DNA of 44,365 nucleotides. It comes from a bacterium (GTDB lineage: Bacteria > Cyanobacteriota > Sericytochromatia > S15B-MN24 > VGJW01). How positions within the stretch are numbered: position 1 is the stretch's first letter; each line of letters starts with the position of its first letter. The DNA lies in the NCBI GenBank assembly GCA_021781555.1, contig JAJXWQ010000021.1, positions 1-44,365 on the forward strand, read 5' to 3'. Positions 1,541 to 28,000 of this stretch are shown here, one piece after another. The notes under the pieces were generated by a model. It had not been told where the DNA came from. It saw only the letters and a list, made by a program, of their open reading frames with translations, and did no database searches. Position numbers and translations under genes: made by a program.

Positions 1541-1654
1541 ATCGGGTCAGATCAAACCGGGAGCAAGCTCTTGCAGGGTGAACGGGTCCCTCTGCGCGGT
1601 CGCTGCGCTGCGCAACCGGGCCCCGTTTGACTCCCAGGGCTCGGGAGCACTCTA
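1541..1654 (+). repeat. dispersed three-arm palindromic repeat, locus 1
   Basis: A degenerate C module (1541-1566, containing ATCAAACCGGGAGC) is followed by one A-B unit (TGAACGGGTCCC at 1579-1590, CCCCGTTTGACTC at 1621-1633) and a shortened C end (GGGAGCACTCTAG, 1643-1655). It fills the gap between the convergent miaB and radical SAM genes. The terminal CTCTAG carries the TAG stop of the minus-strand gene. Confidence 0.85.
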
Positions 1655-2674
1655 GCGGACCCCGCGCGCCGCGGGGCAGGCGAGGTCGGGTGCACCTGTG
1701 GCCTCGCCACGGCCGTAGGTCGCCGCCGGACACCCTCCTCGGCAGCCGCTCCACGCCGCGCACGACGCGCACGCACCATGCGGGCGGTGCGCTCGGATCT
1801 CCTGCAGGAGCGGGTGCTTCTCCCACACTTCGATCAGGTCGTCCTGCCAGACATTGCCGAGCTTTTGCCCGATGCGACAGTACCGGATGGATCCATCCAC
1901 ATCCACCTCCACGAGCTCGGTGCGATCGCAATGACACATGTCGGTCGACAGGAACCACAGGCGCCGGGTGAGGCGGGGATAGAGGTTCGGCAGGTTGTGC
2001 GCGAGCGGATCGAAGAGCATGATCGGGCGCTTGTAGCGGATCGCGACGGCATGCTCGAGGAGTGCCACCAGGACCCGGTGGAAGTCGCCCTGGGTCTCGA
2101 GGCCTCCGGCCGCTTGGCCACGCGCGATCACGCGCTGAACCTTGATCCCCGCGACGCCCAGCTCGCGAGAGAGGTCGAGCAGGCGAGGGATCTCGTCGAG
2201 GTTGCGCCCTGGGATCATGACCGCGCTCAGGACGATGAGCATCCTGGCCTTGCGCAGCGCCGAGATGCCAGCCAGGGCCCGTTCCCAGGACTTCGGACCC
2301 CGGATCGCCTCGTGGGTCTGGCGCGTCGCCCCGTCGAGGCTCACCTGAACCATCTTCAGGCCCGCCTGTCGGAGCGTCCAGGCCTGTGGCAGGTCGATCC
2401 TTGTCGCATTAGTCACCAATCGCAACGTGAAATTATGTCGTCGTGCAAGTTTGATGACATCTGCAAGGTCCGGGCGGGTTGTGGGCTCGCCGCCGCCGAG
2501 CGTGAGGAAGCCCTCGCCCCGGTCGCCATGGTGCCGGCGCAGGCGGTCGAACGTGGTGAGGACCCGCTCGACGTCCTCGAGCGGCATCGGTCGGGCGCCA
2601 AGTCGGTCCTGATAGCAGTGCGAACAGGCGAGGTTGCAGACGCCCGTGACGTTGAGGTGGAAGCGCGGCTTCAA
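1652..2674 (-). CDS. radical SAM/SPASM-domain enzyme
   Basis: 340 aa if started at the TTG at 2674. That TTG overlaps the TGA stop of the preceding gene (TTGA), which indicates translational coupling. The same frame stays open upstream, but that stretch is antisense-type coding of the neighbour and has no better start. The radical SAM motif is C13-x3-C17-x2-C20, followed by GGEP (61-64). The C-terminal third carries SPASM-type cysteines at C247, C249, C266, C302, C305, C311, C315 and C333, the usual ligands for auxiliary iron-sulfur clusters. Families with this layout include peptide maturases (PqqE, AlbA) and sugar or cofactor enzymes. The substrate is unknown, and no precursor-peptide gene is evident nearby. 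The partner gene suggests nucleotide-sugar or glycoconjugate chemistry, which is inference. Confidence 0.85.
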   Translation of the reverse strand: MKPRFHLNVTGVCNLACSHCYQDRLGARPMPLEDVERVLTTFDRLRRHHGDRGEGFLTLGGGEPTTRPDLADVIKLARRHNFTLRLVTNATRIDLPQAWTLRQAGLKMVQVSLDGATRQTHEAIRGPKSWERALAGISALRKARMLIVLSAVMIPGRNLDEIPRLLDLSRELGVAGIKVQRVIARGQAAGGLETQGDFHRVLVALLEHAVAIRYKRPIMLFDPLAHNLPNLYPRLTRRLWFLSTDMCHCDRTELVEVDVDGSIRYCRIGQKLGNVWQDDLIEVWEKHPLLQEIRAHRPHGACASCAAWSGCRGGCPAATYGRGEATGAPDLACPAARGVR

Positions 2675-3738
2675 CGAGCGGACAGTGCTCCGTGCAAGGA
2701 CTGCGCCTTGCGCGCCAGCAGGATCTGCGCCTGCGCGACGTCGGCCTGGCTCTTGACCGGGATGAACCGATCGTCGCGGTCGATCTCGAGGGCGCCGAAG
2801 GCCAGGCGGGCCGAGAGGTCGCCCGCCAGGTGCTCGAACTGTATCACCGGGGTGTCGTCGACCCTCTTCTCCACGACGTACCACGGCAGATCGAAATCGC
2901 GATCGAGGGACCTGGCCTCGAAGCAATAGGTCGCCGTGTTGAAGACCGGAATCGCGTTCTGGTCGACCGTGGGCGGAAACGCAAAGCCCTCGACCAGCTG
3001 GAGCCGGCCATCGACCCGCGCCGGTGCCCCACCCCGATCGCCCGGCGCCTTGGCGGCGACCTCGGCTGTCATCTGGGTCCCGCTGGCAAGGTGGAATCCG
3101 ACGATGGCCATGTCGGGCGTCGCCCCGAGGTTGTCGACGTTCGAGAAGAGCAAGGTGGTCCCGCCGGCGCCGAGGAATTCCGCCAGCAGACCCGCCTGGC
3201 GCATTGCGGAGGGAAAATCTCCGTGCCCGGGCGCCGCATCGTTTTCCTGGCCCCTCGGGTCGACGAAGCGCGCCCCGCTGGCCAGCAGCCGGGGGTACCG
3301 GAATTGCTGGAACAGCCGGACCCGAGCGGGATCGATGCCGAAGTACCCGTGCTCGACCAGGTGGGCGGCCACCGCGTCGTGCGTGTGGAAGCTGGTCATG
3401 ATGTAGATTGGCAGGCGATCGCCACCGATCTCCCGGGCCCATTGGAGCTTCCACCCGAGAAAGCTTTGCCCCCCGAAGATGGGGTAGATCCCCTTGGGCC
3501 GGTCCCAGTTGAACCGCGTCGCCATGCCGCCCGCGAGGATCACGAGGCCGAGCTTCCCTTGTCGCAGGGCATCCGCGCCCCGGGCTTCGAGCTGGCGCCG
3601 CTCCTCGCCGCCCCGAGGCGGCAGCGTGGCGATGTCGCCGGGCGCGGGTGGCATGACCTCGGCCGTCAGGATGTTGTCCGCCGCCGACCAGGATCCGCTC
3701 CTGAACTTCTCTGCCAGGGTCTCGAACGCTGCGTCCAT
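2671..3738 (-). CDS. UTP-sugar-1-phosphate uridylyltransferase, eukaryotic-type UDPGP family
   Basis: 355 aa. Matches the UDPGP family (UTP-glucose-1-phosphate uridylyltransferase or UDP-GlcNAc pyrophosphorylase), which makes a UDP-sugar from UTP and a sugar 1-phosphate in the cytoplasm. Visible motifs are the nucleotide-binding loop GGMATR (70-75) with PK at 81-82, GHGD (171-174), NVDNLGA (200-206), FNT (266-268), EK (290-291), QFE (300-302) and RFIPVKS (324-330). These follow the order of eukaryotic-type UGPases rather than bacterial GalU. It is shorter than typical eukaryotic UGPases. It is first of a two-gene unit, sharing a TTGA stop/start overlap with the radical SAM gene. The specific sugar cannot be read from the sequence. 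Confidence 0.85.
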   Translation of the reverse strand: MDAAFETLAEKFRSGSWSAADNILTAEVMPPAPGDIATLPPRGGEERRQLEARGADALRQGKLGLVILAGGMATRFNWDRPKGIYPIFGGQSFLGWKLQWAREIGGDRLPIYIMTSFHTHDAVAAHLVEHGYFGIDPARVRLFQQFRYPRLLASGARFVDPRGQENDAAPGHGDFPSAMRQAGLLAEFLGAGGTTLLFSNVDNLGATPDMAIVGFHLASGTQMTAEVAAKAPGDRGGAPARVDGRLQLVEGFAFPPTVDQNAIPVFNTATYCFEARSLDRDFDLPWYVVEKRVDDTPVIQFEHLAGDLSARLAFGALEIDRDDRFIPVKSQADVAQAQILLARKAQSLHGALSAR

Positions 3739-3960
3739 GGGGCCATCTTACAGCGGAAAGCCCACCGCGCGGTAATCGAGGATTCCCCTTCCAGGTGCGC
3801 CTGGAGCAGCCCCCTGGCTCTGTCGATCCAGACCCGCCGGGAGGCCCCCGGCAGGTAGGCCGCAAGATCCGATCGCGATCGCCTTTCGTAGGGTACGATC
3901 GCATGCGTCGTGCCGTAGGGCTCGAGTCCCCCGTCTGTTGGTTCCCGCTCGGAGAAGACG
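3739..3960. other. divergent intergenic region
   Basis: Separates the minus-strand uridylyltransferase from the plus-strand VKOR gene and must hold promoters for both. It contains one GCGATCGC octamer (3875-3882) and a TACGAT (3895-3900) that could be a plus-strand -10. No convincing -35 or operator was seen. Confidence 0.4.
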
Positions 3961-4950
3961 ATGCCACAGCCCGGTTCTACCCCACTTCTGTCTTCGCAGC
4001 GCTGGCTGCTTGCGGGGCTCGCCTCGCTGGGGATTTTCGATGCGTCCTACCTGCTCATCGCGCATGCGATGGGGCAGTCCCTGGCTTGCCCGCAGACGGC
4101 CATCATCAATTGCGACGAAGTCGTCACCAGCCAGTACTCGGTGGTGATGGGTTTGCCGGTCGCCTTCTGGGGCCTGCTGGCATACCTGTCCGTGGTCGGA
4201 CTGTCGCTGTGGCCCATCGTGGGGAATCGGCTCGGCCGGGCAACGGACCCTACCCCCGGGACCCCCGACGGCAATCTCTTCTTGCTGCGGGGCCTGACGA
4301 CGGTGATGGCGACGATCAGCAGTTACTTGGTCTACCTGATGGTGGGGGTGATCCATGGCGTCTGCCTGTACTGCATCGGGTCGTTCTTGCTGTCGTTGAC
4401 CTTGTTCGGGATCGCGAACTTCTGGCCGGCGCTGACCAAGGCGAGCGGTCGGGTCGTCATCGGCGGACTCCTCGTGGGGGTTCTGGCCCTGGCGGCTCTC
4501 GGCGCTCCCCCCAACCAATCCGCCGCGGTTCCCGGCATTCCGGGCGGCTTCCCGCCCCAGCCGGGCAGCGGTGTCGTCCCTCAGAACGGCCTCGTGCCCC
4601 TCTCCGAGCCCGTCTATCCGATCCCGACGACCTCCGGGCCGGCCGAAATGGCCCTGGCCAGGTGGCTCGCGGAGAACGGCGCCAGGATGTATGGCGGTTA
4701 TCGCTGCCCGCACTGCTTCCGCGAGAAGGAGCTCTTTGGCCGGCAGGCCTTCCAGCTGATCGACTACGTCGAATGTGACCCGTCGACCTCTTCGGCCCGC
4801 GTCGCTCTCTGCAAGGCGGCAAATATCCGCGAATACCCCACCTGGGAGATCGGCGGCAAGTACTATCCAGGGGAGGCCAACCTCGAGGTCCTGGCCGCCC
4901 GATCCAACTACCCCGGCAGTCAGGCCTTTGCCCGGCACATCCTCCGCTAG
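3961..4950 (+). CDS. VKOR-thioredoxin fusion disulfide-forming oxidoreductase
   Basis: 329 aa. The N-terminal vitamin K epoxide reductase domain has several membrane segments and a periplasmic thioredoxin-like domain follows. The VKOR domain shows loop cysteines C43 and C51, a conserved Ser region with GLPVAFWG, and the quinone-facing CXXC C135-LY-C138. A Pro/Gly-rich linker (about 183-225) leads to a Trx-like domain with C249-PH-C252. The family oxidises secreted proteins: electrons pass from the Trx CXXC through the loop cysteines to CXXC and then to quinone, replacing DsbA/DsbB. Fused forms are well known in cyanobacteria. All six expected cysteines are present, so it should be active. Confidence 0.93.
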   Translation: MPQPGSTPLLSSQRWLLAGLASLGIFDASYLLIAHAMGQSLACPQTAIINCDEVVTSQYSVVMGLPVAFWGLLAYLSVVGLSLWPIVGNRLGRATDPTPGTPDGNLFLLRGLTTVMATISSYLVYLMVGVIHGVCLYCIGSFLLSLTLFGIANFWPALTKASGRVVIGGLLVGVLALAALGAPPNQSAAVPGIPGGFPPQPGSGVVPQNGLVPLSEPVYPIPTTSGPAEMALARWLAENGARMYGGYRCPHCFREKELFGRQAFQLIDYVECDPSTSSARVALCKAANIREYPTWEIGGKYYPGEANLEVLAARSNYPGSQAFARHILR

Positions 4951-4990
4951 CGGAGCGCGCTCGTCGGGGGCTAGCGATCCGGGGTTTGGA

Positions 4991-5914
4991 GTGCCAAGCG
5001 ATTCGCGACGCTGGCGTGACCTGGCTTACGGCCTGGCCACGGTGATCTTCTTCGGCCTTTACACCCCGCTCGCCAAGCGCTGGCTTGCCGATATGCCGCC
5101 GCTGATGTCGACGGGTTTCCTCTACAGCTCGTCGGGTGCAACGCTCGCCCTGCTCGTCGCTGTCCGGTGGCTTGCCGGCTACCGCATCGAACCCCTGCGC
5201 CGACTCAAGCTTGGGGATGCTCGCATCTATGGCCTCGGGGTGGCGTGTGGCGTCTCGGCTTCCTGGCTCCAGCTCGACGGCCTCGGCCAGGTGTCCGGCA
5301 CTGTGGGATCGCTCCTTAGCAATCTCGAGGGCGTCTTCATGGTGGGGATCGCCCTGTTCTTCGGGGAGTCCTTGCGGTTCTCCGAGGCGGTAGGCGCTGC
5401 CGCGATCCTGGGCGGGGCGGTCGTTCTGAGCCTCGGGGCCAGCGGGGGGGCCACGACGCATCTCGGGGGCGTCTTGCTGGTGGCGATCGCATACCTGGGG
5501 TGGGCCAGCGACAACATGACCACGCAGCGCCTGTCCGAGCGCGATCCCATGGCTCTCATGGCGACCAAGTGTCTGCTGGCGGGTGCGGTGAGCCTGGCGA
5601 TCGCGGGGTTGGCGCACGAGCCGCTCCCCCCGATGGCACAGATCGGTCCCGCGCTGCTGCTAGGCGGAATCTGGTGGTCGGCCGCCACGGCCTGCTTCGT
5701 GCTGGGCCTGCGGGCTTTGGGTGGCGCGAAGATGGGCAGCCTGCTTTTCCTCACGCCTTTTGCCGGTGCGATCGGCTCCATCGTGGGACTCAAGGATCCG
5801 GTGACGATGGCGGTGATGGCTGCGGCAGCGCTCATGGGCATCGGCGCCTTCGCTCTGGGACACGGCCACCTCAAGGCGGAGGCCGGTGACCGGGCGGTGG
5901 CGTCCTCGATCTGA
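4991..5914 (+). CDS. EamA/DMT-family transporter
   Basis: 307 aa starting at GTG 4991, chosen because a GGGG tract lies just upstream and the first hydrophobic segment begins about 10 residues in. Two EamA halves of about five transmembrane segments each are visible, with Gly/Ala-rich helices. The end of helix 4 in each half has the family pattern (GSLLSNLEGVF in the first half, AKMGSLLFLTPF in the second). Family members export metabolites such as amino acids or purines, but the substrate cannot be inferred here. It starts 40 bp after the VKOR gene on the same strand and may be co-transcribed. The end is followed by a dispersed repeat and a convergent ABC operon. Confidence 0.85.
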   Translation: MPSDSRRWRDLAYGLATVIFFGLYTPLAKRWLADMPPLMSTGFLYSSSGATLALLVAVRWLAGYRIEPLRRLKLGDARIYGLGVACGVSASWLQLDGLGQVSGTVGSLLSNLEGVFMVGIALFFGESLRFSEAVGAAAILGGAVVLSLGASGGATTHLGGVLLVAIAYLGWASDNMTTQRLSERDPMALMATKCLLAGAVSLAIAGLAHEPLPPMAQIGPALLLGGIWWSAATACFVLGLRALGGAKMGSLLFLTPFAGAIGSIVGLKDPVTMAVMAAAALMGIGAFALGHGHLKAEAGDRAVASSI

Positions 5915-5933
5915 GGCTTGTGAATCTTGTAGT

Positions 5934-6025
5934 GTGAACGGGTCCCTCTGCGCGGTCGCTACGCTGCGCAATCGGACCTCGTTTGGCTCCTTCGGCCCCG
6001 ATGGCTTCGAAGCGGGAGCGGTCTA
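5934..6025 (+). repeat. dispersed three-arm palindromic repeat, locus 2 (degenerate)
   Basis: GTGAACGGGTCCCTCTGCGC opens the A-B unit, whose B arm has drifted to CCTCGTTTGGCTC. The C module remains recognisable as TTCGAAGCGGGAGCGGTCTA. The final CTA (6023-6025) is the complement of the TAG stop of the minus-strand permease. It lies between two convergent genes. Confidence 0.75.
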
Positions 6026-6847
6026 CTCGGCCCCCGACAGGCTCATGGCCCCGGCCGCGGCCAGCACGAGCGCCACGACGGTTATCACTCCGACATCGAA
6101 CCCCAGGCTCCATCGGATCAGACCGGTGGCCCGGGCCAGCACCGAGAGTCGCTGGGTGCCACCGAGAGGCAGCTGGATCAGCGTCGACGAGAACACGAGA
6201 CCCCGAAGGGCGTCGACGCCGTAGGTGAGCGGATCGACGCGCATCAGGATCTTCATCCAACCCGGGGCGGTGCTGAGCGGAAACATGGCCCCCGAGAGGA
6301 AGTACAGGGGCATCACCAGGAAATTCATGATCATCTGGAAGCCTTGCATCGACTTCATTCGCCCGGCGATCGCCACTCCCAGGCTGGTCACGGCGAAGCT
6401 GATGAGAAAGGCCACCACCAGGATCTTGGCCACGACGGCCGCCGTGAGCGATACTCCGACGACGGGCGCGAGCGCCAGGAGGATGATGGCCTGGATCGTG
6501 GCAGTCGTGGCTCCGCCCAGGCTCTTTCCCAGCGCCACCGCACCGCGCGAGACGGGCGCGACGAGGACCTCCTTGAGAAATCCGAACTCGCGGTCCCAGA
6601 TCGTGGACGCGCCGGCGAAGATGGAGGTGAAAAGCAGGCTCATCCCGATGATGCCCGGGAACATGAACTTGAGGTAGTCGATGCCCCCCGGAGCGGTACG
6701 GAGAGTCATCGCGCTGGTGAGGCCCTTGCCCACGACCAGGAGGTAGAGCAGCGGCTGCGCAAACATGGCAACCAGCCGCGAGCGCTCGCGAATCGATACC
6801 TTGAACTCGCGCAGCCAGATGGTGTATATGGCCTGGATTGCCTGCAT
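6023..6847 (-). CDS. ABC-2 type exporter permease (DrrB-like)
   Basis: 274 aa with six predicted membrane segments, typical of ABC-2 membrane subunits. It has the family pattern of a cytoplasmic N-terminus (WLREFKVSIRERSRL), a large Gly-containing second segment and a MPLYFLSGAMFPL stretch late in the protein. It probably pairs with the ATPase gene ending 19 nt upstream. The two-gene layout is that of drug, lipid or polysaccharide exporters of the DrrAB class. The substrate is unknown. Its stop codon lies in the outer end of a dispersed repeat. Confidence 0.88.
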   Translation of the reverse strand: MQAIQAIYTIWLREFKVSIRERSRLVAMFAQPLLYLLVVGKGLTSAMTLRTAPGGIDYLKFMFPGIIGMSLLFTSIFAGASTIWDREFGFLKEVLVAPVSRGAVALGKSLGGATTATIQAIILLALAPVVGVSLTAAVVAKILVVAFLISFAVTSLGVAIAGRMKSMQGFQMIMNFLVMPLYFLSGAMFPLSTAPGWMKILMRVDPLTYGVDALRGLVFSSTLIQLPLGGTQRLSVLARATGLIRWSLGFDVGVITVVALVLAAAGAMSLSGAE

Positions 6848-6866
6848 GGGATCTCCTTGGAAACGC

Positions 6867-7847
6867 CTATCGCCGGCCCTGGCTGCCCCAGCGGCGGGCC
6901 ATCATGCGCATGCGGTCGAGGGGGGTCGCCTCCTCGGCGCGGATCTCACGGCCGGTGAGGTGCATGAAGACGTCGTCGAGGTTGGGCTGCTTGACGGAAA
7001 TGGCCGTGATGCGACCCGGGAAGTCGGCGACGACCCGGGGCACGAACTGGGCGGCGTCTGCCATCTGGAAGTGGACCGTGCCCTCGGATGCCTGCACCGG
7101 AACGCCATAGCGCTCCGCGATGTCCCCCTGAAGCGCGGCATCGCCGGTGATGATCACGGTTTCACCGCCCAGGCTCCGCTTCAGAGCCTCCGGAGTGTCG
7201 AGCGCCTGGAGCTTGCCATGGTCGATGACCGCGATGCGATCGCAGTTCTCGGCCTCGTCCATGTAGTGAGTCGTCATGAAGACCGTGACACCCGACTCCG
7301 ACCGCAGCCGACGCACATGCTCCCAGATCGCGGCTCGGGTCTGAGGGTCGAGGCCCACGGTAGGCTCGTCCAGGAACAGGACCTGGGGCTCGTGCAAGAG
7401 CCCGCGGGCGATCTCGAGCCGCCGCTTCATTCCGCCCGAGAAGATGGAGACGAGGTCCTTGCGGCGGTCCAGCAGGTCGACCATCGTCAGCACCCTGGCG
7501 ATCCGGTCCTGGCGGACGGAGCGCGGGACGTGGTAGAGCATCGCGTGGAACTGCAGGTTCTCCTCGGCCGTCAGCCGGTTATCCAGGGAGGGATCCTGGA
7601 AGACCATTCCGATGGACTGCCGCACCTTGCCGGGCTGGCTCGCGACGTCGAACCCCGCCAGAGTTGCCCGCCCCGCCGTCGGCTTGAGCAAGGTCGACAG
7701 GATCTTGATGGCGGTGCTCTTGCCCGCCCCGTTGGGCCCGAGGAAGCCGAAGATCTCACCGGGTTGGACGACGAGATCGATCCCCGCCAGCGCGGTGACG
7801 TCGCCGTAGCGCTTGATCAGTCCTTGGGTCTCGATGATTGCGCTCAT
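6867..7847 (-). CDS. ABC transporter ATPase (DrrA/CcmA-like)
   Basis: 326 aa. Walker A is GPNGAGKST (37-45), the signature is FSGGMKRR (136-143, F in place of the usual L) and Walker B is VLFLDEP (156-162). A C-terminal extension of about 90 residues resembles the DUF4162 tail of DrrA-type ATPases. It energises the permease encoded immediately downstream. The start ATG at 7847 follows a clear promoter 90-115 bp upstream with an overlapping palindrome, so the operon is probably controlled by a repressor. No regulator gene is adjacent. Confidence 0.9.
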   Translation of the reverse strand: MSAIIETQGLIKRYGDVTALAGIDLVVQPGEIFGFLGPNGAGKSTAIKILSTLLKPTAGRATLAGFDVASQPGKVRQSIGMVFQDPSLDNRLTAEENLQFHAMLYHVPRSVRQDRIARVLTMVDLLDRRKDLVSIFSGGMKRRLEIARGLLHEPQVLFLDEPTVGLDPQTRAAIWEHVRRLRSESGVTVFMTTHYMDEAENCDRIAVIDHGKLQALDTPEALKRSLGGETVIITGDAALQGDIAERYGVPVQASEGTVHFQMADAAQFVPRVVADFPGRITAISVKQPNLDDVFMHLTGREIRAEEATPLDRMRMMARRWGSQGRR

Positions 7848-7924
7848 GGAAGCCTTCAGCTCGGGAACTGGCGCCCCGAGAAACCTGCGTTCCTCCGAGC
7901 GGGTGAAGCAAATTGTTTATCTGG

Positions 7925-7938
7925 GTCTAATTTTAGAC
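7925..7938. promoter_or_regulatory. 14-bp palindromic operator candidate
   Basis: GTCTAA-TT-TTAGAC is a perfect palindrome in an AT-rich island. It overlaps the -10 hexamer of the minus-strand ABC promoter and extends past it toward the start site, where a repressor would block transcription. The binding protein is unknown. Confidence 0.5.
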
Positions 7939-7963
7939 TATCGGATAACTTTCTGCTGGTCAA
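7935..7963 (-). promoter_or_regulatory. sigma70-type promoter of the ABC exporter operon
   Basis: On the minus strand, TTGACC (7963-7958) is followed after 17 bp by TAGTCT (7940-7935). Spacing is ideal and the -35 has 5 of 6 consensus bases. It lies about 90 bp before the ATPase start. Confidence 0.6.
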
Positions 7964-7984
7964 GGGGAAGAGCCTGCTCTAGCC

Positions 7985-8035
7985 TGGCTTTGCCCGGAGC
8001 GGGGTCCTTGGCGGGAAAGCCATCCCACCAAGGAC
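7985..8035. other. overlapping inverted repeats, possible pseudoknot
   Basis: GTCCTTGG (8004-8011) pairs with CCAAGGAC (8028-8035). AAAGCCA (8016-8022), which lies in that loop, pairs with TGGCTTT (7985-7991). Both pairings are perfect, and together they give an H-type pseudoknot topology. The region follows the minus-strand lipoprotein gene, so it may be its 3' UTR. No T-run is seen, and it matches no riboswitch I know. Confidence 0.35.
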
Positions 8036-8099
8036 ACCAGCTCCAAATTTGGGCGCAAGGGTCTCCGGTTGTGCCGGTGGACCCGGACCGACCGGCGAG

Positions 8100-9674
8100 C
8101 TAGCGGCCGGGTGGCTGCTGCTGTTTGGGGTTGGCCTTGTCTTTGTGCGTACGCTTGGCGCGCTGCCAGGGCGCCAGCTTGTATGCGCTTTCCGGATGGG
8201 TCTGCGCGGTCACAGGCGGGACCTGCTCAAGACGAGCGATCGGCGTCTCGGGACGCCGGGCTACCGGCGGTTCGGGACGAGCGATAGGCTGTTCGGGGCG
8301 CGCTACCGGCAGCTCGGGACGGCGGGCTACCGGCTGTTCGGGACGCGCTATCGGAGTTTCGGGACGGCGGGCTACCGGCTGTTCAAGACGAGCGATCGGC
8401 GTCTCGGGACGGCGGGCTACCGGTCGCTCGGGACGCGTGATCGGCAGCTCGGGACGGCGGGCTACGGGCGGTTCGGGACGGGCTATCGGAGTTTCGGGAC
8501 GGCGGGCTACCGGCTGTTCGGGACGCGCTACCGGCAGCTCGGGACGAGCGATAGGCTGTTCGGGACGCGCTACCGGCAGCTCGGGACGGCGGGCTACCGG
8601 CCGTTCGGGACGAGCGATAGGCTGTTCGGGACGGCGGGCTACCGGCTGTTCGGGGCGCCCGATAGGCTGCTCCGGCCGGGCGATGGGCCGTGGCGGTGGC
8701 ATGGCGGGATGCAGGTCGGGAGCGATTCTCTCGGCCTCGCGGCGTATCCTGGTGTCGATCTGCTGGCGGATCGCCCGGTTGCGCTCGATCGCCGGAGTGA
8801 CCGGGACCACGAGCGGCGAGCCGTGTTGCTGGCGATCTTCGATCCGGTGTCGGATGTCGGCGGGAAGCCGGGCGAGACGGTGACGCTGGCCGACCTCGAC
8901 CCGAGCGACGAGGTCCGGGGAGACGGTGACCGGCTCCACGATGCGGCTCTCGAGGTTCGTGATGTCGTTGATGACGTTCGTCGGGCCGAGATCGGGGATG
9001 GGGCTCAGGATCTCGGGCTCGATTTGCAGGGGCGCCGCGACGTCCTCGATGTCGACCGGGGAGACGAAGCCCCTCGACATCGAGATCGGCAAGATCGCGG
9101 AGTACGGTGCCAGCAAAGATGGCACGACCCGGTAGATCGGCACGAACATCCCGGCGACCAGCACCAGCGCGGGATAGACGTAAAGGCCGGCCTCCGGGTC
9201 AAAGAAGGAGAGCGGGACGAAGCGCCCCGTGACGGTCTGGTACGGAATCCAGACCCCGTCGAGGGGCAAGAAGCGACTGTCCTCCAGGACGGCGCTATCG
9301 AAACCTGGGGGAAATCCGACATAGCTTCCCGGTCCACCCGTGAAGATCGACGGCTCGAAGTCCGCGGAGAACTCGTCGGGCGCGATCGTCTGGAGCGAGG
9401 AGTCACCGTAGCTCCGGGGAATCGATGCGGGGATGCTGGTCAACAGGTCCGAGGCCAGCTGGACGGGCGGGGCCGAAGTCTCCTGCGGTGCGATGACGTT
9501 ACCGGGCGAAGGGGGACCGGAGCCTCCGGGGGACACCGCGGCCTGGTGCGCGTCGGGAACGGCCGGTGATACCGGTGATATGGCGCCCGGCTGCGATGCT
9601 GACGTTCCGCAAGCTGCCAGCGTCCCCGCCAGGCAAAAAGCGGCGACTCGAGAAAGGAGCGAGCGGCTGGACAC
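8100..9674 (-). CDS. lipoprotein with Pro-Arg-Glu tandem repeats
   Basis: 524 aa from the GTG at 9674, chosen because AGGAGG sits 5 nt upstream; an ATG 10 codons earlier has no such site. The N-terminus is a lipoprotein signal with lipobox L19-A20-A21-C22, so the protein should be membrane-anchored outside the cytoplasm. Residues about 70-230 form a hydrophobic, proline-containing region of unknown fold. Residues about 328-481 are an uninterrupted series of units built on PIARPEQPVARRPE, a stiff, strongly basic and regularly charged stretch. The C-terminus is lysine-rich (KDKANPKQQQ). Such segments often span the envelope or bind peptidoglycan or acidic polymers, which is inference. I do not recognise the family. 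Confidence 0.75.
   Translation of the reverse strand: MSSRSLLSRVAAFCLAGTLAACGTSASQPGAISPVSPAVPDAHQAAVSPGGSGPPSPGNVIAPQETSAPPVQLASDLLTSIPASIPRSYGDSSLQTIAPDEFSADFEPSIFTGGPGSYVGFPPGFDSAVLEDSRFLPLDGVWIPYQTVTGRFVPLSFFDPEAGLYVYPALVLVAGMFVPIYRVVPSLLAPYSAILPISMSRGFVSPVDIEDVAAPLQIEPEILSPIPDLGPTNVINDITNLESRIVEPVTVSPDLVARVEVGQRHRLARLPADIRHRIEDRQQHGSPLVVPVTPAIERNRAIRQQIDTRIRREAERIAPDLHPAMPPPRPIARPEQPIGRPEQPVARRPEQPIARPERPVARRPELPVARPEQPIARPELPVARPEQPVARRPETPIARPEPPVARRPELPITRPERPVARRPETPIARLEQPVARRPETPIARPEQPVARRPELPVARPEQPIARPEPPVARRPETPIARLEQVPPVTAQTHPESAYKLAPWQRAKRTHKDKANPKQQQPPGR
8230..8690. repeat. coding tandem repeat (VNTR-like)
   Basis: DNA encoding the RPE repeats of the lipoprotein. Units alternate between about 21 and 24 bp, built on CGGGACGNGC-type cores (GGGCTACCGGCTGTTCGGGA and variants). 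They form higher-order blocks of about 45 bp. The near-identity of non-adjacent blocks implies recent slippage or recombination, so copy number probably varies between strains. Confidence 0.85.
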
Positions 9675-9712
9675 GGCTTCCTCCTTGTGTCCACGGGACG
9701 ACACCCGGCGAT

Positions 9713-9839
9713 CCCAGAGGGGTTTCGCCAGACCGTGGGCGAGCCCAGAGCGGTTTCGCCCGGGGCGATCGGGCCGAGGGAGTCAAACAGGGCCCGGTTG
9801 CGGGGCGCAGACGGACCTGTTCAAGCTGCAACAGGTATA
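9713..9839 (-). repeat. dispersed palindromic repeat, locus 3, plus a 17-bp direct repeat
   Basis: Minus-oriented A-B unit: GAGTCAAACAGGGCCCGG (9780-9797) to GTTCAAGCTGCAACAGGTATA (9819-9839), with a degenerate C module at about 9745-9779. Next to it CCCAGAGGGGTTTCGCC (9713-9729) recurs as CCCAGAGCGGTTTCGCC (9744-9760). It occupies most of the 282-bp gap between ftsW and the repeat lipoprotein gene; the rest (to 9956) shows nothing I can name. Confidence 0.7.
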
Positions 9840-9956
9840 GACCAGCCGCGTGCGAAGGCAACCCTGGCCCGACCGGGTTCCGTCGGTCTGACCTTGCCTG
9901 CCGCTGGCCTCGCAGCGCGGGACCAGGGCCCCGCTCCGGCTAACCCGAAAAACCGC

Positions 9957-11120
9957 TCACGAGGAGCTTGGAATTCTCCGTGTGAAGTGGACAAGGGGTT
10001 GGCCAGACGTGCGCGGGGACCGCGAGACGCCGAGGAGGAGGCCCATCGAGAAGAGCGTGACGAGCAAGCTCGTGCCCCCGAAAGAGAGAAACGGCAGCGG
10101 CACGCCGGTCGTCGGGACCGAAGCTGTCACGACGGCAATGTTGAGAAAAGCCTGGAAGACGATGCCCGCCGTGATGCCGGTTGCCAGGAGCTTGGCATGC
10201 ACGCTCCGGGCCCTTTGAGCGATCGAGAAGCCACGCTGGGCCAGCACCACGAACAGAGCGACCACCAGGATCGTGCCGATGAGACCGAGCTCCTCGCCCA
10301 CGACGGCAAAGATGAAATCCGTGTGCTGGATCGGCAGATAGAAGAGTTTTTCCTTGCCCTGTCCCCAGCCCGTCCCGAAGATCCCGCCCGAGCCGATCGC
10401 CAGGAGCGACTGGACGAGCTGGAATCCAATGTCCTTGGAGTGCGCCCACGGGTTCACGAACGCGAGGAACCGGTCGCGCTGGTACGGCGTGTGCAGGACG
10501 TGGTAGGCCGCGGCTGCCAGCCCCACCCCACTGCCTCCGAGCAACCAGGTCAGCGGCATCCCGGCGCACAGGAACATCGCGAAGGCGATCCCGGCCAGGA
10601 TCAGCGTGGTGCCAAGGTCTGGCTGGAAGAGTACCAGGCCGAGGAGACCCAGGACCGGAAGGACGGTCTGGCGCAGATCCTTGCGCGTCCAGGGGCCCTC
10701 TGGTTTGCGCGCCAGGACGTCGGCCAGGTACATCACCATGCCGAGCTTGGCGAACTCCGAAGGCTGGAACGACATCGGCCCCAGGCGCAGCCAGCGGGCA
10801 GCTCCGAGCTGGGAGACGCCGAGATGCGGGACGTACGTGGCGGCCAGAAACGCGGCCGACAACCCGATCATGACCTTGGAAGCCACCCGGAGCCGCTCGG
10901 TGGCGATTCCCGCGCCGAGGAACATGGCGACGAACCCCAGGGTTCCCCAGGCCACCTGCTTCTTGAAGAAGAACAGACCGTCCGAAAGGCGGAATTCGGC
11001 CGACGGCGCCGAGGCCGACAGGACCATGAAGAAGCCGAAGACGGCCAGGATGATGGCCACGCTCGCGAGGGGACCGTCCCAGGCGAGCGCGCCGGCGTTT
11101 CGACGGGATACGGCGGCCAT
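9957..11120 (-). CDS. ftsW: septal peptidoglycan glycosyltransferase FtsW
   Basis: 387 aa, about ten membrane segments, SEDS family. FtsW polymerises lipid II at the septum with its partner class B PBP (the ftsI product in this cluster). Visible motifs are GAARWLRLGPMSFQPSEFAK, PDLGTT, a FAVVGEELGLIG segment and TGVPLPFLSFGGTS. RodA is the paralogue with the same fold; location at the end of the dcw block favours FtsW. It is separated from murD by 78 nt, a larger gap than elsewhere in the block. No murG, murC, ftsQ, ftsA or ftsZ follows. Confidence 0.93.
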   Translation of the reverse strand: MAAVSRRNAGALAWDGPLASVAIILAVFGFFMVLSASAPSAEFRLSDGLFFFKKQVAWGTLGFVAMFLGAGIATERLRVASKVMIGLSAAFLAATYVPHLGVSQLGAARWLRLGPMSFQPSEFAKLGMVMYLADVLARKPEGPWTRKDLRQTVLPVLGLLGLVLFQPDLGTTLILAGIAFAMFLCAGMPLTWLLGGSGVGLAAAAYHVLHTPYQRDRFLAFVNPWAHSKDIGFQLVQSLLAIGSGGIFGTGWGQGKEKLFYLPIQHTDFIFAVVGEELGLIGTILVVALFVVLAQRGFSIAQRARSVHAKLLATGITAGIVFQAFLNIAVVTASVPTTGVPLPFLSFGGTSLLVTLFSMGLLLGVSRSPRTSGQPLVHFTRRIPSSS

Positions 11121-11198
11121 AGGTTTCGTTTAGCTTAACCTGGCCCCGGTACCGAGGTTATGACGTTTCTCACACTTTTCGGGCCCGGTCGCCGGAAG

Positions 11199-12599
11199 TC
11201 AGGGTGAAACTTCCTCCTGGATCGCCCCGACCGCCGGTCGCGCTACCTCGCCGGGTTCGAGTGCCATGACCGCCTTCTTGAAGAGGGAGCCCCGCTCTTC
11301 GTAGTTCTTGAACATGTCGAAGCTCGTGCAGGCCGGACTGAACAGCACGACGCCGCCAGGTCGAGCGAGTGTGCGAGCCATCGCCACGGCGCCCTCGAGG
11401 GAATCGGTGAGGGTCAGGGCCTCGTACCCGGCAGCGCGCAGGACCCGCTCGAAGTACGGGCCGGCTTCGCCCAGCAGGACCACGTGCTCGACCCGGCGCG
11501 ATATCGCCTCGATGAGCGGCGCGATCGCCCCCCCCTTGTCGCGTCCACCTGCGATGAGCACCAGCGGTTCGGCAAAGGAAGCGATGGCCTTGACGGTGCT
11601 GTCGTAGTTCGTGCCCTTGCTGTCGTTGTACCACTGCACGCCGTTTAGGGTCCGCACGGGCTCGATGCGGTGCTCGACCCCGCCGAAGCCGGCGATCGCC
11701 CTCGCGATGACCTCTGCCGCGACGCCGAGTGCGAGCGCGATGGCGGTGGCCGCCAGGCAGTTCTCCAGGTTATGGTCGCCCCGTAGCAGGATGTCGGAAA
11801 CCGGCATGACGCGCAGGGTTGATCCGGCCTTACGCCAGACGATCCAGCCCCCCTCGACGATGACCCCCGTGATATCCTGCCGGCGGCTGAAGAGGAGCAC
11901 CTGTCCGGCAAGTTCGCCCCGGATACTCGAGACCGCGGGATCGTCGGCATTGAGGACGGCCCAGTCGGAAGCGGTCTGGCGAGCAAAGAGCTGCTTCTTG
12001 AGTTCGAAGTAGACCTCCCGCGATCCGTGCCGATTCAGATGATCGTCGGTGAAGTTGAGCCAGGCCCCGACCTTGGGCCGGAAATCGACGACCGTTTCCA
12101 GCTGGAAGCTCGAGACCTCCGCCACGAGGTAATCGCAAGGCTGCTCGGCCAGGGTGACCAGGGGAATCCCGATGTTGCCGCCGAGAGGGGCGTCAAGGCC
12201 GGCCTCGGCGAGGATACGGGCCACGAGCGTCGTCGTCGTGGTCTTCCCGTTGGTACCCGTGATGGCCACGATCGGCGAGGCTGCCAGGCGGTACGCCAGC
12301 TCGATCTCACCGATGAGCTCCACGCCATCCGCCTCGGCGGCCTGCAGGAGCGGCAAGGCCCGAGGCACGCCCGGCGATACGACGATGAGATCCGCGGCCG
12401 CCACGGATCTGGCGTGGCCGCCCGCCTCGAGCTCCACGCCCGCGGGAAGGGAGCCCTGGACTTCCTGCAGTTCCTCGGCCGGCCTCGTATCCGATGCCAT
12501 CACCCGGGCTCCGTGCCGGGCCAGTGCCTCGGCGACCGCCAGGCCGGTCCGCGCCAGACCGATGATGGCCACCGTCCGGTCACTGAAATCTGCAGTCAC
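11199..12599 (-). CDS. murD: UDP-N-acetylmuramoyl-L-alanine:D-glutamate ligase MurD
   Basis: 466 aa. Cytoplasmic ATP-dependent ligase adding D-Glu to UDP-MurNAc-L-Ala. An N-terminal Rossmann-like UDP-binding region begins VAIIGLARTGLA (10-21). The ATP loop GTNGKTTTT starts at 115. The central domain has NFTDDHLNRHG, and the C-terminal domain has WYNDSKGTNYDST and the late LFSPACTSFDMF motif specific to MurD. It starts 12 nt after mraY, in the order expected for an Escherichia- or Bacillus-type dcw operon. Confidence 0.95.
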   Translation of the reverse strand: MTADFSDRTVAIIGLARTGLAVAEALARHGARVMASDTRPAEELQEVQGSLPAGVELEAGGHARSVAAADLIVVSPGVPRALPLLQAAEADGVELIGEIELAYRLAASPIVAITGTNGKTTTTTLVARILAEAGLDAPLGGNIGIPLVTLAEQPCDYLVAEVSSFQLETVVDFRPKVGAWLNFTDDHLNRHGSREVYFELKKQLFARQTASDWAVLNADDPAVSSIRGELAGQVLLFSRRQDITGVIVEGGWIVWRKAGSTLRVMPVSDILLRGDHNLENCLAATAIALALGVAAEVIARAIAGFGGVEHRIEPVRTLNGVQWYNDSKGTNYDSTVKAIASFAEPLVLIAGGRDKGGAIAPLIEAISRRVEHVVLLGEAGPYFERVLRAAGYEALTLTDSLEGAVAMARTLARPGGVVLFSPACTSFDMFKNYEERGSLFKKAVMALEPGEVARPAVGAIQEEVSP

Positions 12600-12611
12600 A
12601 GTCGCTTCCTT

Positions 12612-13595
12612 CTATAGCCAGGCGGCAGCGATGACGGCCGCCAGCAATCCAACGAGTCCAAACCGAGCCACCACCTTGGTCTCCTTGAGCCCCCCGAGCT
12701 CGAAGTGGTGGTGCAGCGGGCTCATGCGGAAGATTCGCTTGCCGCCGGTTGCCTTGAAGTAGGACACCTGAATCATCACCGACAGGGCCTCGCCCACGAA
12801 GACGAGGCCGACCGGCAGCAGGTACAGCTCGAGGTGGCCGATCGCAGCGATCGCGACCATGGCCGCGCCGAGGCCCAGGGATCCGGTATCCCCCATGAAT
12901 ACCTGCGCCGGGTGGGCATTGACCCACAAGAAGCCCACGCAGCCCCCGGCGAAGGCCAGGGGCAGGGCCAGGAGCCCGGGGTGCAGCGCCGGATCGCTCC
13001 AGCGCAGCGTGAGTGCCGCGAGCCCTGCCAGGGCGATCGCCGAGGTCGTGGCTGCAAGGCCGTCCAGCCCATCCGTGAGGTTCACGGCATTGGTAGCGGC
13101 AACCATCACCAGGACGAGGAAGGGCCAGTAGGCCCACCCGAGATCGAGCCGCGTGTGGGCGACGGGCACCCACACCCAGGGCGCGTGCTGGAAGCTTGCC
13201 AGGGCTCCGGCAAAGACGCTCCCCAGGCCCACCTGAGCGAGGAGCTTCTGGCGAGCGGAAAGCCCCTTGTTGTGCTTCTTCAAGATGGACAGGAAGTCGT
13301 CGATGAACCCGACCAGCGCGAAGCCTGCCACCACCACGAGCGCCGCGATGAGCTCAGGGGCAGCCGGAATGAACGGCACGCAGGCGAGGATCGACGCCAG
13401 CAGGAAGAACAGCCCGCCCATCGATGGCGTGCCGGCCTTGGCAAGGTGCGATTGCGGGCCCTCCTGCCGGATGACCTGTCGGGCCTTCAAACGCGTCAGC
13501 AAGGCCACTGCCGGCCGCGCCATGGCCACGGTCAGGACCAGCGCCACCACGAAGGCGGGGGACAGCGGGACGAAGGCGAACAGGTGATCTTTCAC
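12612..13595 (-). CDS. mraY: phospho-N-acetylmuramoyl-pentapeptide transferase MraY
   Basis: 327 aa with about ten membrane helices. It transfers phospho-MurNAc-pentapeptide from UDP to undecaprenyl phosphate to give lipid I. Diagnostic motifs are GTPSMGG near the N-terminus, GFIDDFLSI (metal-binding aspartates), NAVNLTDGLDGLA, FMGDTGSLGLG and MSPLHHHFE. It begins 19 nt after murF and precedes murD by 12 nt. Confidence 0.96.
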   Translation of the reverse strand: MKDHLFAFVPLSPAFVVALVLTVAMARPAVALLTRLKARQVIRQEGPQSHLAKAGTPSMGGLFFLLASILACVPFIPAAPELIAALVVVAGFALVGFIDDFLSILKKHNKGLSARQKLLAQVGLGSVFAGALASFQHAPWVWVPVAHTRLDLGWAYWPFLVLVMVAATNAVNLTDGLDGLAATTSAIALAGLAALTLRWSDPALHPGLLALPLAFAGGCVGFLWVNAHPAQVFMGDTGSLGLGAAMVAIAAIGHLELYLLPVGLVFVGEALSVMIQVSYFKATGGKRIFRMSPLHHHFELGGLKETKVVARFGLVGLLAAVIAAAWL

Positions 13596-13614
13596 GGGAC
13601 ACTTACCAGAGGAC

Positions 13615-15006
13615 TCATTCGAGCCATTCTGACAGACCGGCCACGATCTCTTCCAGCCGTCCGGAGCGAGAGCCCTTCACCAGGAGCCGGTCCCCCGATC
13701 GCACGAAGGAGCCGAGCACCCGGACCGCCTCCGCGTTATCACGGCAGGAAGCGGATGGAACTCGAGTCGTGTCGGCGATCCAGGCCGCGACGTCACCGAC
13801 CGTCACCACGAAGTCGACCGGCAGTCCGTCGAGCGCCCGGCCGAGGGCGCGATGCGCCCCCTCGGCGTGATCCCCGAGTTCGGCCATCTCACCGAAGACC
13901 ACGATACGACGGCCCGGGCTGGGGAGGGTGCAGAAGACCTCGAGGGAAGCTCGGGCGGACTCGGGATTGGCGTTGTAGCTTTCGTCGAGGATCTCGACAT
14001 CGCCGATCGCCACCACGCGGCTGCGCCCTCCGACCGCGGGCGGAGCCAGCACGAAGTCGTCCGGCAGCACGATGCCGAGCTGGCAGGCCACGCCGATGGC
14101 CGCCAAGGAGTTGGCCACATGGTGGCTGCCCGGAAGGGAAAGTCGCACCAGGGCCTCGCCCGCAGGCCATGCGGGCCCCTTGCGCCAGGCGGCCCGGAAA
14201 ACCCAAAAATCGCCGTCGGGAACCGGGGTCGAGGCGGCCCAGACGTCGGGATCCACGCCTTGCCCGGCAACCGTCCTGCCGCCGCTGGCCGCATACCAGC
14301 ACACGGCCGGATGGTCCCGACCGATCGAGCGACAAAACGGATCGTCACCATTGAGCACGACCCGGCCCTGGGGGATGGCCCGGACGAGCTCGCCCTTGGC
14401 CTGGGCAATGGCCTCCTGGCTGCCGAGCCTCCCGATGTGGGCCGTGCCGATATTCGTGATGACTCCGATATCAGGGCCTGCCACCTCCGCCAGATAGGCG
14501 ATCTCGCCCGCTCCCCGCATCCCGAACTCGAGAACGGCGCAGCGCGTGCCAGCCCTCAAATCCAGGAGCGTGCGCGGCACGCCGATCTCGTTGTTGAAAT
14601 TGGCATGGCTCTTGGCCGTGGGAAGGAAGCGCCCGACCAGGTCTGCGATGGCTTCCTTCGTGCTGGTCTTGCCCGACGAGCCGGTGACCGCGACGACCGT
14701 CAAACCGAGCTGGTCACGGTGGTGACGAGCGAGCTTTCCGTAGGCGCCAAGCGTCCGATCCACCTGGATGATGGGCGTGCCCGACGGCGCGCCCTCGGGC
14801 CGCTCTGCGAGGACGGCTGCGGCCCCGCGGGATACGGCATCCGAGATGAAGTCGTGGCCATCGAAGCGCTCGCCGTGCAGGGCCATGTACAGGGAACCCG
14901 GACCGATCGTGCGGGTATCGGTCGAGACCGCAAACAGCGGGAGTTCCGGATCCCCGGCCAGGACGGTCCCCCCGGTGGCCCCTGCAACCTCGCCGAGGGT
15001 GAACAT
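13615..15006 (-). CDS. murF: UDP-N-acetylmuramoyl-tripeptide:D-alanyl-D-alanine ligase MurF
   Basis: 463 aa from the ATG at 15006, which begins MFTLGEVAGATGG and lies 17 nt after the murE stop. The open frame continues upstream through murE, but that part is not murF. MurF adds D-Ala-D-Ala to the UDP-MurNAc tripeptide. The ATP loop is TGSSGKTS (108-115), the NEIGVP motif follows, and ESYNANPESARASL marks the central-to-C-terminal transition typical of MurF. It is part of the minus-strand dcw operon. Confidence 0.95.
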   Translation of the reverse strand: MFTLGEVAGATGGTVLAGDPELPLFAVSTDTRTIGPGSLYMALHGERFDGHDFISDAVSRGAAAVLAERPEGAPSGTPIIQVDRTLGAYGKLARHHRDQLGLTVVAVTGSSGKTSTKEAIADLVGRFLPTAKSHANFNNEIGVPRTLLDLRAGTRCAVLEFGMRGAGEIAYLAEVAGPDIGVITNIGTAHIGRLGSQEAIAQAKGELVRAIPQGRVVLNGDDPFCRSIGRDHPAVCWYAASGGRTVAGQGVDPDVWAASTPVPDGDFWVFRAAWRKGPAWPAGEALVRLSLPGSHHVANSLAAIGVACQLGIVLPDDFVLAPPAVGGRSRVVAIGDVEILDESYNANPESARASLEVFCTLPSPGRRIVVFGEMAELGDHAEGAHRALGRALDGLPVDFVVTVGDVAAWIADTTRVPSASCRDNAEAVRVLGSFVRSGDRLLVKGSRSGRLEEIVAGLSEWLE

Positions 15007-15023
15007 GGGTGCGGCTCGATCGC

Positions 15024-16511
15024 TCACCGCGCGGTGTCCAGCTCGCGCAAGGCCTGGCGGGCGACTTCCCGATCGTCGAAGGCGATGCGTCTGCCTTTGA
15101 TGATCTGGTACGGTTCGTGCCCCTTGCCGGCCAGGACGACCGTATCTCCAGGTCGAGCCTGGGCGATCGCCCACCGGATGGCCTCGGCGCGGTCGACGAT
15201 CGTCTCGTGCGGGACGACCATTCCCTGGCGAACCTCGGCGATGATGGCCTCGGGATCCTCGGTCCGAGGGTTGTCGCTCGTGACGATCGCCAGGTCGGCA
15301 AGTTCGCATGCGATGCGCCCCATCAAGGGTCGCTTGGTGCGGTCGCGATCGCCCCCGCAGCCAAAAACCACGATGACGCGCTGACTCGTGATGCCGCGGA
15401 TGGTCTCGAGGACGTTCTGCAGGCCGTCCGGGGTGTGGGCATAGTCGACCATCACGGCGAAGTCTGCATCGGGGGCGCTGACGCGCTCGACCCGGCCCGG
15501 AACCCCCGGGACCTTGGCGAAGGCATCCAGGGCGATCGCGGGATCCAGGTCCAGTGCCATGGTTGCCCCCAACGCCGCCAGGGCGTTGTAGAGGTTGAAC
15601 CGACCTGGAAGCTGCAAGGTGAAGCTGAAAGTCCCGCCAGGAGTCTGGAGCACTGCCCGCGAACCAGCTGGTCCCATCTCGATCTCGCGCAGCGAGAGCG
15701 CCGCCGGGTGGTTCAGCCCGTAGCTCAGGATCCGGGTCACGCCCGCAGCGCGTGCCGCGGCCTCCATCTGCTGGGAGCGCGGATCGTCGGCGTTGATCAC
15801 GGCCGCTCCTCCCTCCCGGAGCGACGAGAAGAGCTTGGCCTTGGCGGCCGCGTAGGCTTCCTCGGTGCCATGGTAATCAAGGTGGTCGCGTGTGAGATTG
15901 GTGAACACCCCGACCGCAAATCCGATGTGCGCCGCCCGATGCTGGTCGAGGGCGTGCGAGGATACTTCCATCGCGACCTGCCGGACTCCGGCCTCGGCCA
16001 TCATGGCCAGGATCTGCTGCAGTTCGGGGGCCTGGGGCGTGGTGAAGCCCAGATCGACGGTCGTCTGGAGGCCGCCGGACCGGTACCGGACTCCGAGGGT
16101 ACCGACCACGCCAGCTGGATGTCCCGAGGCGAGCATGGCTGCCTCGACCAGGTGGGTGGTCGTGGTCTTGCCGTTGGTCCCGGTAACGCCGACGACGTCG
16201 AGAGTGCGTCCGGGAAAGCCCCGAAATGCCGCGGCCGCCCAGGCGAGGGCCTCCCGCGTATCCTCGGCCAGGAGGGCGGGTCCGCCCGCGGCTGCCTCGG
16301 AGCGGCTCACGATCGCGGCGAGCGCTCCCTGGTCGAAGGCGGCCGGCACGAACTGGTGCCCGTCGATATGGGTGCCCCCGACGGCGACGAAGAGGTGCCC
16401 CGGACGTACTGTGCGCGAGTCGTAGCTGATACCGGCGATCTCGGCATCGAGGTCCAGCGCTTCGGCGGAACTCGCCGGCCGGTAACGCGCCGCTACATCA
16501 GCCAGTCGCAT
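15024..16511 (-). CDS. murE: UDP-MurNAc-L-Ala-D-Glu:meso-diaminopimelate ligase MurE
   Basis: 495 aa. It adds the third residue of the peptidoglycan stem peptide. The ATP loop is GTNGKTTTT from 111. The carbamylated-lysine region and MDYAHTPDGL are present. The substrate-selecting motif is DNPR (413-416), which in known MurE enzymes specifies meso-DAP rather than lysine, so the wall is of the DAP type. It starts 117 nt after the ftsI stop codon, the gap holding a degenerate dispersed repeat that separates it from the first three genes. Confidence 0.95.
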   Translation of the reverse strand: MRLADVAARYRPASSAEALDLDAEIAGISYDSRTVRPGHLFVAVGGTHIDGHQFVPAAFDQGALAAIVSRSEAAAGGPALLAEDTREALAWAAAAFRGFPGRTLDVVGVTGTNGKTTTTHLVEAAMLASGHPAGVVGTLGVRYRSGGLQTTVDLGFTTPQAPELQQILAMMAEAGVRQVAMEVSSHALDQHRAAHIGFAVGVFTNLTRDHLDYHGTEEAYAAAKAKLFSSLREGGAAVINADDPRSQQMEAAARAAGVTRILSYGLNHPAALSLREIEMGPAGSRAVLQTPGGTFSFTLQLPGRFNLYNALAALGATMALDLDPAIALDAFAKVPGVPGRVERVSAPDADFAVMVDYAHTPDGLQNVLETIRGITSQRVIVVFGCGGDRDRTKRPLMGRIACELADLAIVTSDNPRTEDPEAIIAEVRQGMVVPHETIVDRAEAIRWAIAQARPGDTVVLAGKGHEPYQIIKGRRIAFDDREVARQALRELDTAR

Positions 16512-16539
16512 GACAACTCCTCTCTGTTCCTTTCCCCGT

Positions 16540-16631
16540 TTGCAAGGGGTCCCTCTGCACGGTTGCTCCGCTGCTCCACCGGGCCCTGTTCGAGTCCTCG
16601 GGCTCGATCCTGTCGAGGCGAAGCTGCGCTA
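16540..16631 (+). repeat. dispersed three-arm palindromic repeat, locus 4 (degenerate)
   Basis: TTGCAAGGGGTCCCTCTGCA opens the A-B unit; the B arm is GGGCCCTGTTCGAGTC and the C module is CTCGGGCTCGATCCTGTCGA followed by GGCGAAGCTGCGCTAG. The terminal CTA (16629-16631) is the complement of the ftsI TAG stop. It lies inside the dcw operon between murE and ftsI. Confidence 0.75.
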
Positions 16632-19894: not shown

Positions 19895-19930
19895 AAAACG
19901 GTCCCCGAGGCCAGTGCTGGCCCCGGGGAC
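19895..19930 (-). terminator. intrinsic terminator of rnpB
   Basis: On the minus strand GTCCCCGGGGCC and GGCCTCGGGGAC form a stem of 11-12 pairs with a short loop, followed by CGTTTTGG. It begins about 5 nt past the RNase P RNA 3' end and about 80 bp before rsmH, separating the two transcripts. Confidence 0.75.
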
Positions 19931-19934
19931 GTGA

Positions 19935-20398: not shown

Positions 20399-20409
20399 CA
20401 CGGTACAAG

Positions 20410-20415
20410 TTTATA
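20410..20415 (-). promoter_or_regulatory. candidate -10 box of rnpB
   Basis: TATAAA on the minus strand, 12 nt before the inferred 5' end of RNase P RNA, in an AT-rich patch. No good -35 is seen, because the upstream DNA is the palindromic repeat array. Confidence 0.45.
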
Positions 20416-20417
20416 CC

Positions 20418-20666: not shown

Positions 20667-20689
20667 GGGCGGATCCACGCTAAAAAAGC

Positions 20690-27834: not shown

Positions 27835-28000
27835 CTAGAGCGCTCCCGGTCTGAATGGATCGAGCCCGATGAGTCAAACGGGGCCCGGTTGCGCAGCGCA
27901 GCGACCGCGCAGAGGGACCCGTTCAAACTGCAAAAGGCATAGAGTCAAACGGGGCCCGGTTGCGCAGCGCAGCGACCGCGCAGAGGGACCCGTTCAAAAC
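27835..28000 (-). repeat. dispersed three-arm palindromic repeat, locus 6
   Basis: One full-length copy in minus orientation: CTAGAGCGCTCCCGGTCTGA (C end, 27835), GGATCGAGCCCGATGAGTCAAACG, then the A-B unit ending GTTCAAACTGCAAAAGGCATA. A second A-B unit follows with a 71-bp spacing (27942-28000). It lies between two convergent genes, 14 nt after the HD gene stop. It is one of the two best reference copies (with locus 9). Confidence 0.95.

Follow-up and report, generated by a model that had tools for sequence, protein, structure and literature searches.

Why should several genes in one stretch of a bacterial genome end exactly where a dispersed repeat begins? The stretch analysed here (the window) is a 44,365-nucleotide contig of a Sericytochromatia bacterium (JAJXWQ010000021.1 in assembly GCA_021781555.1), which holds about ten loci of a single repeat family (Table 1). 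A preliminary description had placed the TAG stops of a radical SAM gene, an ABC permease gene and ftsI at the outer right end (its ‘C’ end) of a repeat copy. These three placements are correct, and each stop consists of a duplicated TA plus the terminal G of the element. Two further genes cited as ending at a repeat edge do not belong with them. The cNMP-binding protein gene and the Fur-family gene both stop at TGA, the former in a GTC-TGA context that is also present in a second genome of the same genus (G001), where the array is missing, and the latter at an array edge that has no TA junction.

Table 1 Copies of the repeat family in the window and the gene stops beside them.
Feature	Position	Strand	Details
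Degenerate element copy, left end altered	1568–1655	+	Profile match hmm 8–109, 66.9 bits; target TA 1653–1654; right junction CTAG
TAG stop, radical SAM/SPASM gene (1652–2674, −)	1652–1654	−	Duplicated TA + element terminal G
Degenerate element copy	5925–6025	+	Profile match hmm 9–108, 62.7 bits; target TA 6024–6025; right junction CTAC
TAG stop, ABC-2 permease gene (6023–6847, −)	6023–6025	−	TA + element G
Degenerate element copy, left end CTATACC	9767–9840	−	Profile match; junction without gene stop
Old degenerate element copy	16530–16631	+	Profile match hmm 8–95 ends at 16618; right end traced on to TA 16630–16631; absent in G001
TAG stop, ftsI (16629–18407, −), FtsI-type transpeptidase	16629–16631	−	TA + element G
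60-nt core array, four units + one element left end (TATACCTTTTGCAG)	20412–20682	+	Profile match
Full element copy + partial copy, convergent genes either side	27835–27998	−	Profile match; absent in G001
TGA stop, cNMP-binding protein gene	34280–34282	+	Adjoins truncated 60-nt array; GTC-TGA also in G001; not element-supplied
Truncated 60-nt core array	34290–34442	+	Profile match; neighbouring stop not supplied by array
Truncated 60-nt core array, adjoins Fur-family gene	36482–36666	+	Profile match
TGA stop, Fur-family gene	36665–36667	−	At array edge; no TA junction
Near-consensus element copy, intergenic	41022–41128	+	127.8 bits; TA duplication 41022–41023 and 41126–41127; junctions GTAG / CTAA
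Degenerate element copy, intergenic	41834–41924	+	Profile match

The three arrays in Table 1 are tandem repetitions of the 60-nt element core, with one or both transposon ends missing. The first adjoins the 5′ end of a bacterial class A RNase P RNA (19930–20399, minus strand), which was the sole match in an Rfam scan of the window. Degenerate short-period repeats also occupy positions 8212–8745, within an ORF at 8100–9536 (minus strand).

A short dispersed element with G at both ends

We built an element profile from intact copies and searched the window together with around 770 kb of other stretches of the same genome (G000), 814,845 bases or 21% of the genome in all; draft assemblies were used throughout. 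The search returned 172 matches at 129 loci, making up 1.7% of the sampled sequence. This extrapolates to some 800 matches genome-wide, a figure that may be too high, as the sampled stretches come from long contigs known to carry an intact copy.

The element is 102 nt long between its flanking TAs and has G as the first base at both ends. The left end is GRCCTTTTGCAGTTTGAACGG and the right end, read inward, GAGTGCTCCCGGTTTGAATGG; in their TA context the two ends are TA-GRCCTTTTGCAG and GGGAGCACTC-TA, and the consensus from TA to TA is TAGRCCTTTTGCAGTTTGAACGGGGCCCTCTGCGCGGTCGCTTCGCTGCGCAACCGGGCCCCGTTTGACTCATCGGGCTCGATCCATTCAAACCGGGAGCACTCTA. With both TAs included, 39 of 43 two-ended copies measure 106 nt. 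Tandem copies repeat with a period of 104, because adjoining copies share one TA. When the ends are compared, both start with G and have an inner GTTTGAAYGG in common, with about 13 of 21 positions matching and the outer bases differing. The sequence is G+C-rich and folds into a strong hairpin (−47.9 kcal/mol, z −3.6).

Miniature inverted-repeat transposable elements (MITEs) are non-coding sequences of 70–300 bp that occur as many near-identical dispersed copies, with terminal inverted repeats of 15–30 bp and an autonomous relative whose ends are the same. The family described here is short, dispersed, non-coding and uniform in length, duplicates its TA target and has an empty TTAA counterpart in G001 (see below). 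It is best classed as MITE-like, with the reservations that its terminal repeat is imperfect and that no autonomous relative was found. Among 38 relatives, matches were restricted to G001 and to a member of the same family (G004), the latter weak and partial, while a scan of named genomes gave one matching record, the unclassified MAG ‘bacterium isolate DBS2-1.bin124’. A second, distinct dispersed repeat lies at positions 915–1060 of another sampled stretch (L047, contig C87) and has more than 30 matches at 80–91% identity in G001.

Insertion into YTAR with duplication of TA

The base outside each junction varies, being C or T before the left TA and G or A after the right TA, and the end bases of the element are constant. 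Left junctions read CTAG in 41 cases, TTAG in 10 and GTAG in two. Removing the element from the 43 two-ended copies rebuilds the targets CTAG (30), TTAG (7), CTAA (3), TTAA (2) and GTAA (1), so that 42 of 43 conform to YTAR. The early suggestion of insertion into stop or CTAG sequences is thus correct and can be refined: the element enters YTAR at its TA, which is duplicated. CTAG itself is depleted in the sample, with 379 occurrences against about 754 expected from trinucleotides, and 89 of the 379 are at or in elements.

One empty site is preserved to the base: G001 has GAGCC-TTAA-CC where G000 has GAGCC-TTA[element]TAA-CC. As the empty site is TTAA, the TA was duplicated on insertion and the base after the right TA came from the target. 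This bears directly on an alternative in which the repeat is of the RAYT/IS200-IS605 type (REP/REPIN), entering as a single strand on the 3′ side of a tetranucleotide and duplicating no target, with the right-end CTAG as part of the element; such an insertion would predict TTAG. The variable flanking base on both sides also conflicts with it, and the ends read YTAG rather than the GTAG tetranucleotide of GTAG-REPs. In favour of this alternative, the family consists of high-copy hairpin repeats downstream of genes, and the cited account of GTAG-REPs names their ends as a source of TAG stops (PMC3733652). Both G000 and G001 have a single-copy Y1_Tnp gene, but neither is a RAYT gene flanked by the repeat: no element adjoins the G001 gene (L216), and a remnant near the G000 gene (L217) is missing from G001. 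Copies that share a junction are all arranged head-to-tail (nine of nine pairs in the 815-kb sample, none inverted), despite the palindromic target, which would suit a REP. On balance we consider a REP origin improbable.

Junctions coincide exactly with stop codons

For gene calling we wrote our own codon-usage model, which gave 706 genes and 88% coding sequence in the 815-kb sample. An outer junction exactly equals the TAG of a called gene in 44 of 115 intact cases, compared with between zero and two at any of the other offsets between −12 and +30. The coincidence noticed in the window is therefore more than chance, and tabulating copies against stop codons, as the preliminary description had proposed, reveals the positional preference whose absence would have spoken against it. 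Just one gene terminates within an element in a different frame. All 44 junction genes use TAG, whereas the other genes use TGA (395), TAG (205) and TAA (51); partly repeat-derived stops account for 44 of 249 TAG stops (18%). TAG is unusually common as a stop in this sample (249 of 695 called genes).

Both element ends can form the stop, the right in 30 cases and the left in 14 (two-sided P = 0.02). The proposal that a gene always meets the ‘C’ side thus holds as a bias and fails as a rule.

Called genes contain just one of the 129 element loci. CTAG sites outside elements number 76 at stops, 120 in intergenic sequence and 94 within genes. A stop junction is present at 42 of the 73 loci with an intact junction (58%), which might be taken to indicate that insertion is actively directed to stops, for instance by way of translation termination or of a factor that binds stop codons. 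However, where both ends are intact the proportion, 19 of 41, matches that of stops among non-genic CTAG sites (76 of 196; P = 0.39), so the target motif and the absence from genes suffice and no ‘stop sensor’ is needed. Other insertions lie in plain spacers with the same YTAR motif. Active targeting is accordingly very hard to credit.

Decayed copies behave differently. At loci with one remaining end, the surviving junction is a stop in 23 of 32 cases; for intact loci the figure is 21 of 82 junctions (P = 1e-5). All three TAG stops in the window sit at such decayed copies. Purifying selection to keep the borrowed stop would explain this most simply.

The early idea of a 3′-UTR element kept at gene ends, which would make the copy a terminator or mRNA-end hairpin placed or retained there by selection for that function, gains partial support from this retention of the stop-bearing end; the intact copies, whose stop hits do not exceed CTAG availability, give it no support. 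The strong hairpin would suit such a role, as would the position of 51 of 129 element loci between convergent genes, compared with 110 of 691 gene pairs, an enrichment that arises in part because such spacers hold two stops. Yet keeping the stop codon would by itself explain the retained end, a scan for a U-tract terminator at one copy (41022) found none, and orthologues lacking the element keep the gene. We therefore regard selection for a 3′-UTR function as unlikely to account for the pattern. In G001 the same analysis yields 23 copies and eight intact junctions, two of them stops, numbers too small to weigh.

Junction genes keep their C-termini

The single usable comparison genome was G001. 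It provided matches for 18 genes, namely 16 junction genes and the two edge genes; of the former, three with less than 40% identity were excluded as non-orthologous, leaving 13. The ABC-2 permease site falls outside this comparison, as the G001 contig ends there.

In all 13 pairs the C-terminus lies within 0–4 residues of that of the G001 orthologue, and in seven the gene ends at the same codon. FtsI is one of these, with GTC-TAG in G000 and GTT-TAG in G001, where the element is absent. Three more genes likewise lack the element in G001 and have TAG there at the corresponding codon (C33:11018, GGC-TAG; C87:16864, GGT-TAG; C87:3926, GTC-TAG). The earlier suggestion that C-termini could be altered is thus not supported. 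The orthologues' stops in G001 are TAG in seven cases, TAA in two and TGA in four, and for those four the comparison does not reveal an ancestral TAR stop. They include the orthologue of the radical SAM protein, which lacks the element and is one residue shorter. A further gene (C15) has AAC-TAG where G001 has AAC-TGA.

Could the stops nonetheless be new, with C-termini lost by truncation? Part of each stop codon is element sequence, and the products of C85:45910 and C85:82188, both junction genes, fall 2–3 residues short of their G001 counterparts. Against this stand the agreement in length of every orthologue pair and the frame, exact at 44 junctions with a single gene ending within an element in another frame. 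At a YTAR target, moreover, a junction can read TAG in frame only if a TAR stop preceded it; such a TAG cannot be created de novo. As judged from these alignments, truncation is not the rule for junction genes, and as a general explanation it is extremely unlikely.

At one gene end (C66:8518–8552), the G001 counterpart (in L115) has an element-like sequence of its own, decayed and in the opposite orientation, and a TGA stop. This suggests repeated insertion at one stop.

Search for a mobilising transposase

Neither an autonomous copy nor a transposase with matching ends was found among the DDE_3, DDE_Tnp_1 and Y1_Tnp loci of G000 and G001, and the sampled 21% of the genome contains no coreless pairs of element ends. 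The source element may be absent or unassembled. The genome has a single IS630-type (DDE_3) transposon (L071, contig C164, approximately 610–2131), which is bounded by perfect terminal repeats (GTACCTCTGCACAGAGG) and flanked by TA/CTAG. We rejected it as the mobilising partner, as these inverted repeats differ from the element ends. Older element copies start with TA-TACCTTTTGCAG, which has a faint likeness to the L071 end.

A model for insertion at stop codons

We consider it very probable that the family is a non-autonomous MITE-like element that moved by cut-and-paste into the TA of YTAR, mostly CTAG, duplicating the TA, with stops rebuilt as TAG and intragenic insertions lost. As YTAR holds TAR on both strands, its targets would include any TAA or TAG stop that follows a pyrimidine. 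When a stop is struck, the gene-side copy of TA plus the G of the element would form TAG and the protein would be unchanged in either orientation, because both element ends start with G. Insertions in stop codons would survive for this reason, as would those in spacers, and those within genes would be selected away. The host gene would then depend on the terminal G, so that this end is preserved as the remainder decays. The target, the TA duplication, the empty sites, the exact stops, the unchanged C-termini and the unequal decay are direct observations. We infer that mobilisation was by a DDE transposase, either IS630/Tc1-mariner-like or of a TA-duplicating IS5 subgroup, and that insertions within genes did occur and were purged.

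Neither the excess of right-end stops nor the uniform head-to-tail pairing follows from this model, and the pairing counts against it, because random orientation would be expected at a palindromic target.

A more speculative possibility, which we put forward tentatively, is that YTAR specificity and a terminal G at both ends are a co-evolved combination. In such a stop-neutral transposon, TAA and TAG stops would serve as safe landing sites. One MITE family could thereby multiply to hundreds of copies even in a genome densely packed with genes, which would then come to depend on its ends.

The model offers a mechanical reason, checkable base by base, for repeats positioned exactly on bacterial stops: the motif contains the stop, which the first base of the element restores. 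Other TA-inserting repeats can be examined by the same arithmetic, and a repeat-supplied stop codon is not in itself evidence of gene truncation.

Comparison with known systems

Insertion at TA with TA duplication is established for ISY100 (PMC2170065), and IS630 prefers the TA within 5′-CTAG-3′ (Tenzen and Ohtsubo 1991, as cited in PMC2170065). Among MITEs, the 107-bp RUP is attributed to IS630-Spn1 (PMC2229807). The element studied here resembles the IS630/Tc1-mariner group and its MITEs in TA duplication and in its CTAG preference. It differs in being G+C-rich with an imperfect terminal repeat, and in that our search found no IS630-type transposase with matching ends; the repeats of L071 are unlike, though L071 too lies in a CTAG site. 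Correia/NEMIS and ERIC/RU-1 MITEs are short and palindromic, with terminal TA and TA duplication (PMC2229807, PMC2759123), and the present element is likewise short, TA-terminal and TA-duplicating. Fusion with RU-1 is reported to abolish the usual stop of the amidase ECA3499 and so extend the protein (PMC2759123), whereas the element described here leaves the stop in place.

Stop codons supplied by repeats have precedents. In the cited section of PMC3049150, 36 pneumococcal CDSs take their stop codon from a BOX element, with no strong evidence of truncation. BOX shares with our element the supply of stop codons to flanking genes but has another sequence and modular structure, and that section gives no target-duplication account of BOX stops. 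GTAG-REPs, associated with RAYT, are hairpin repeats found mainly downstream of genes, whose ends often provide a TAG stop according to the cited account (PMC3733652). There GTAG is described at one end only and target duplication is not mentioned, whereas here TAG arises from both ends via TA duplication. What is new relative to these precedents is a base-resolved mechanism, a count made against a proper background, the empty sites and the unequal decay of the two ends.
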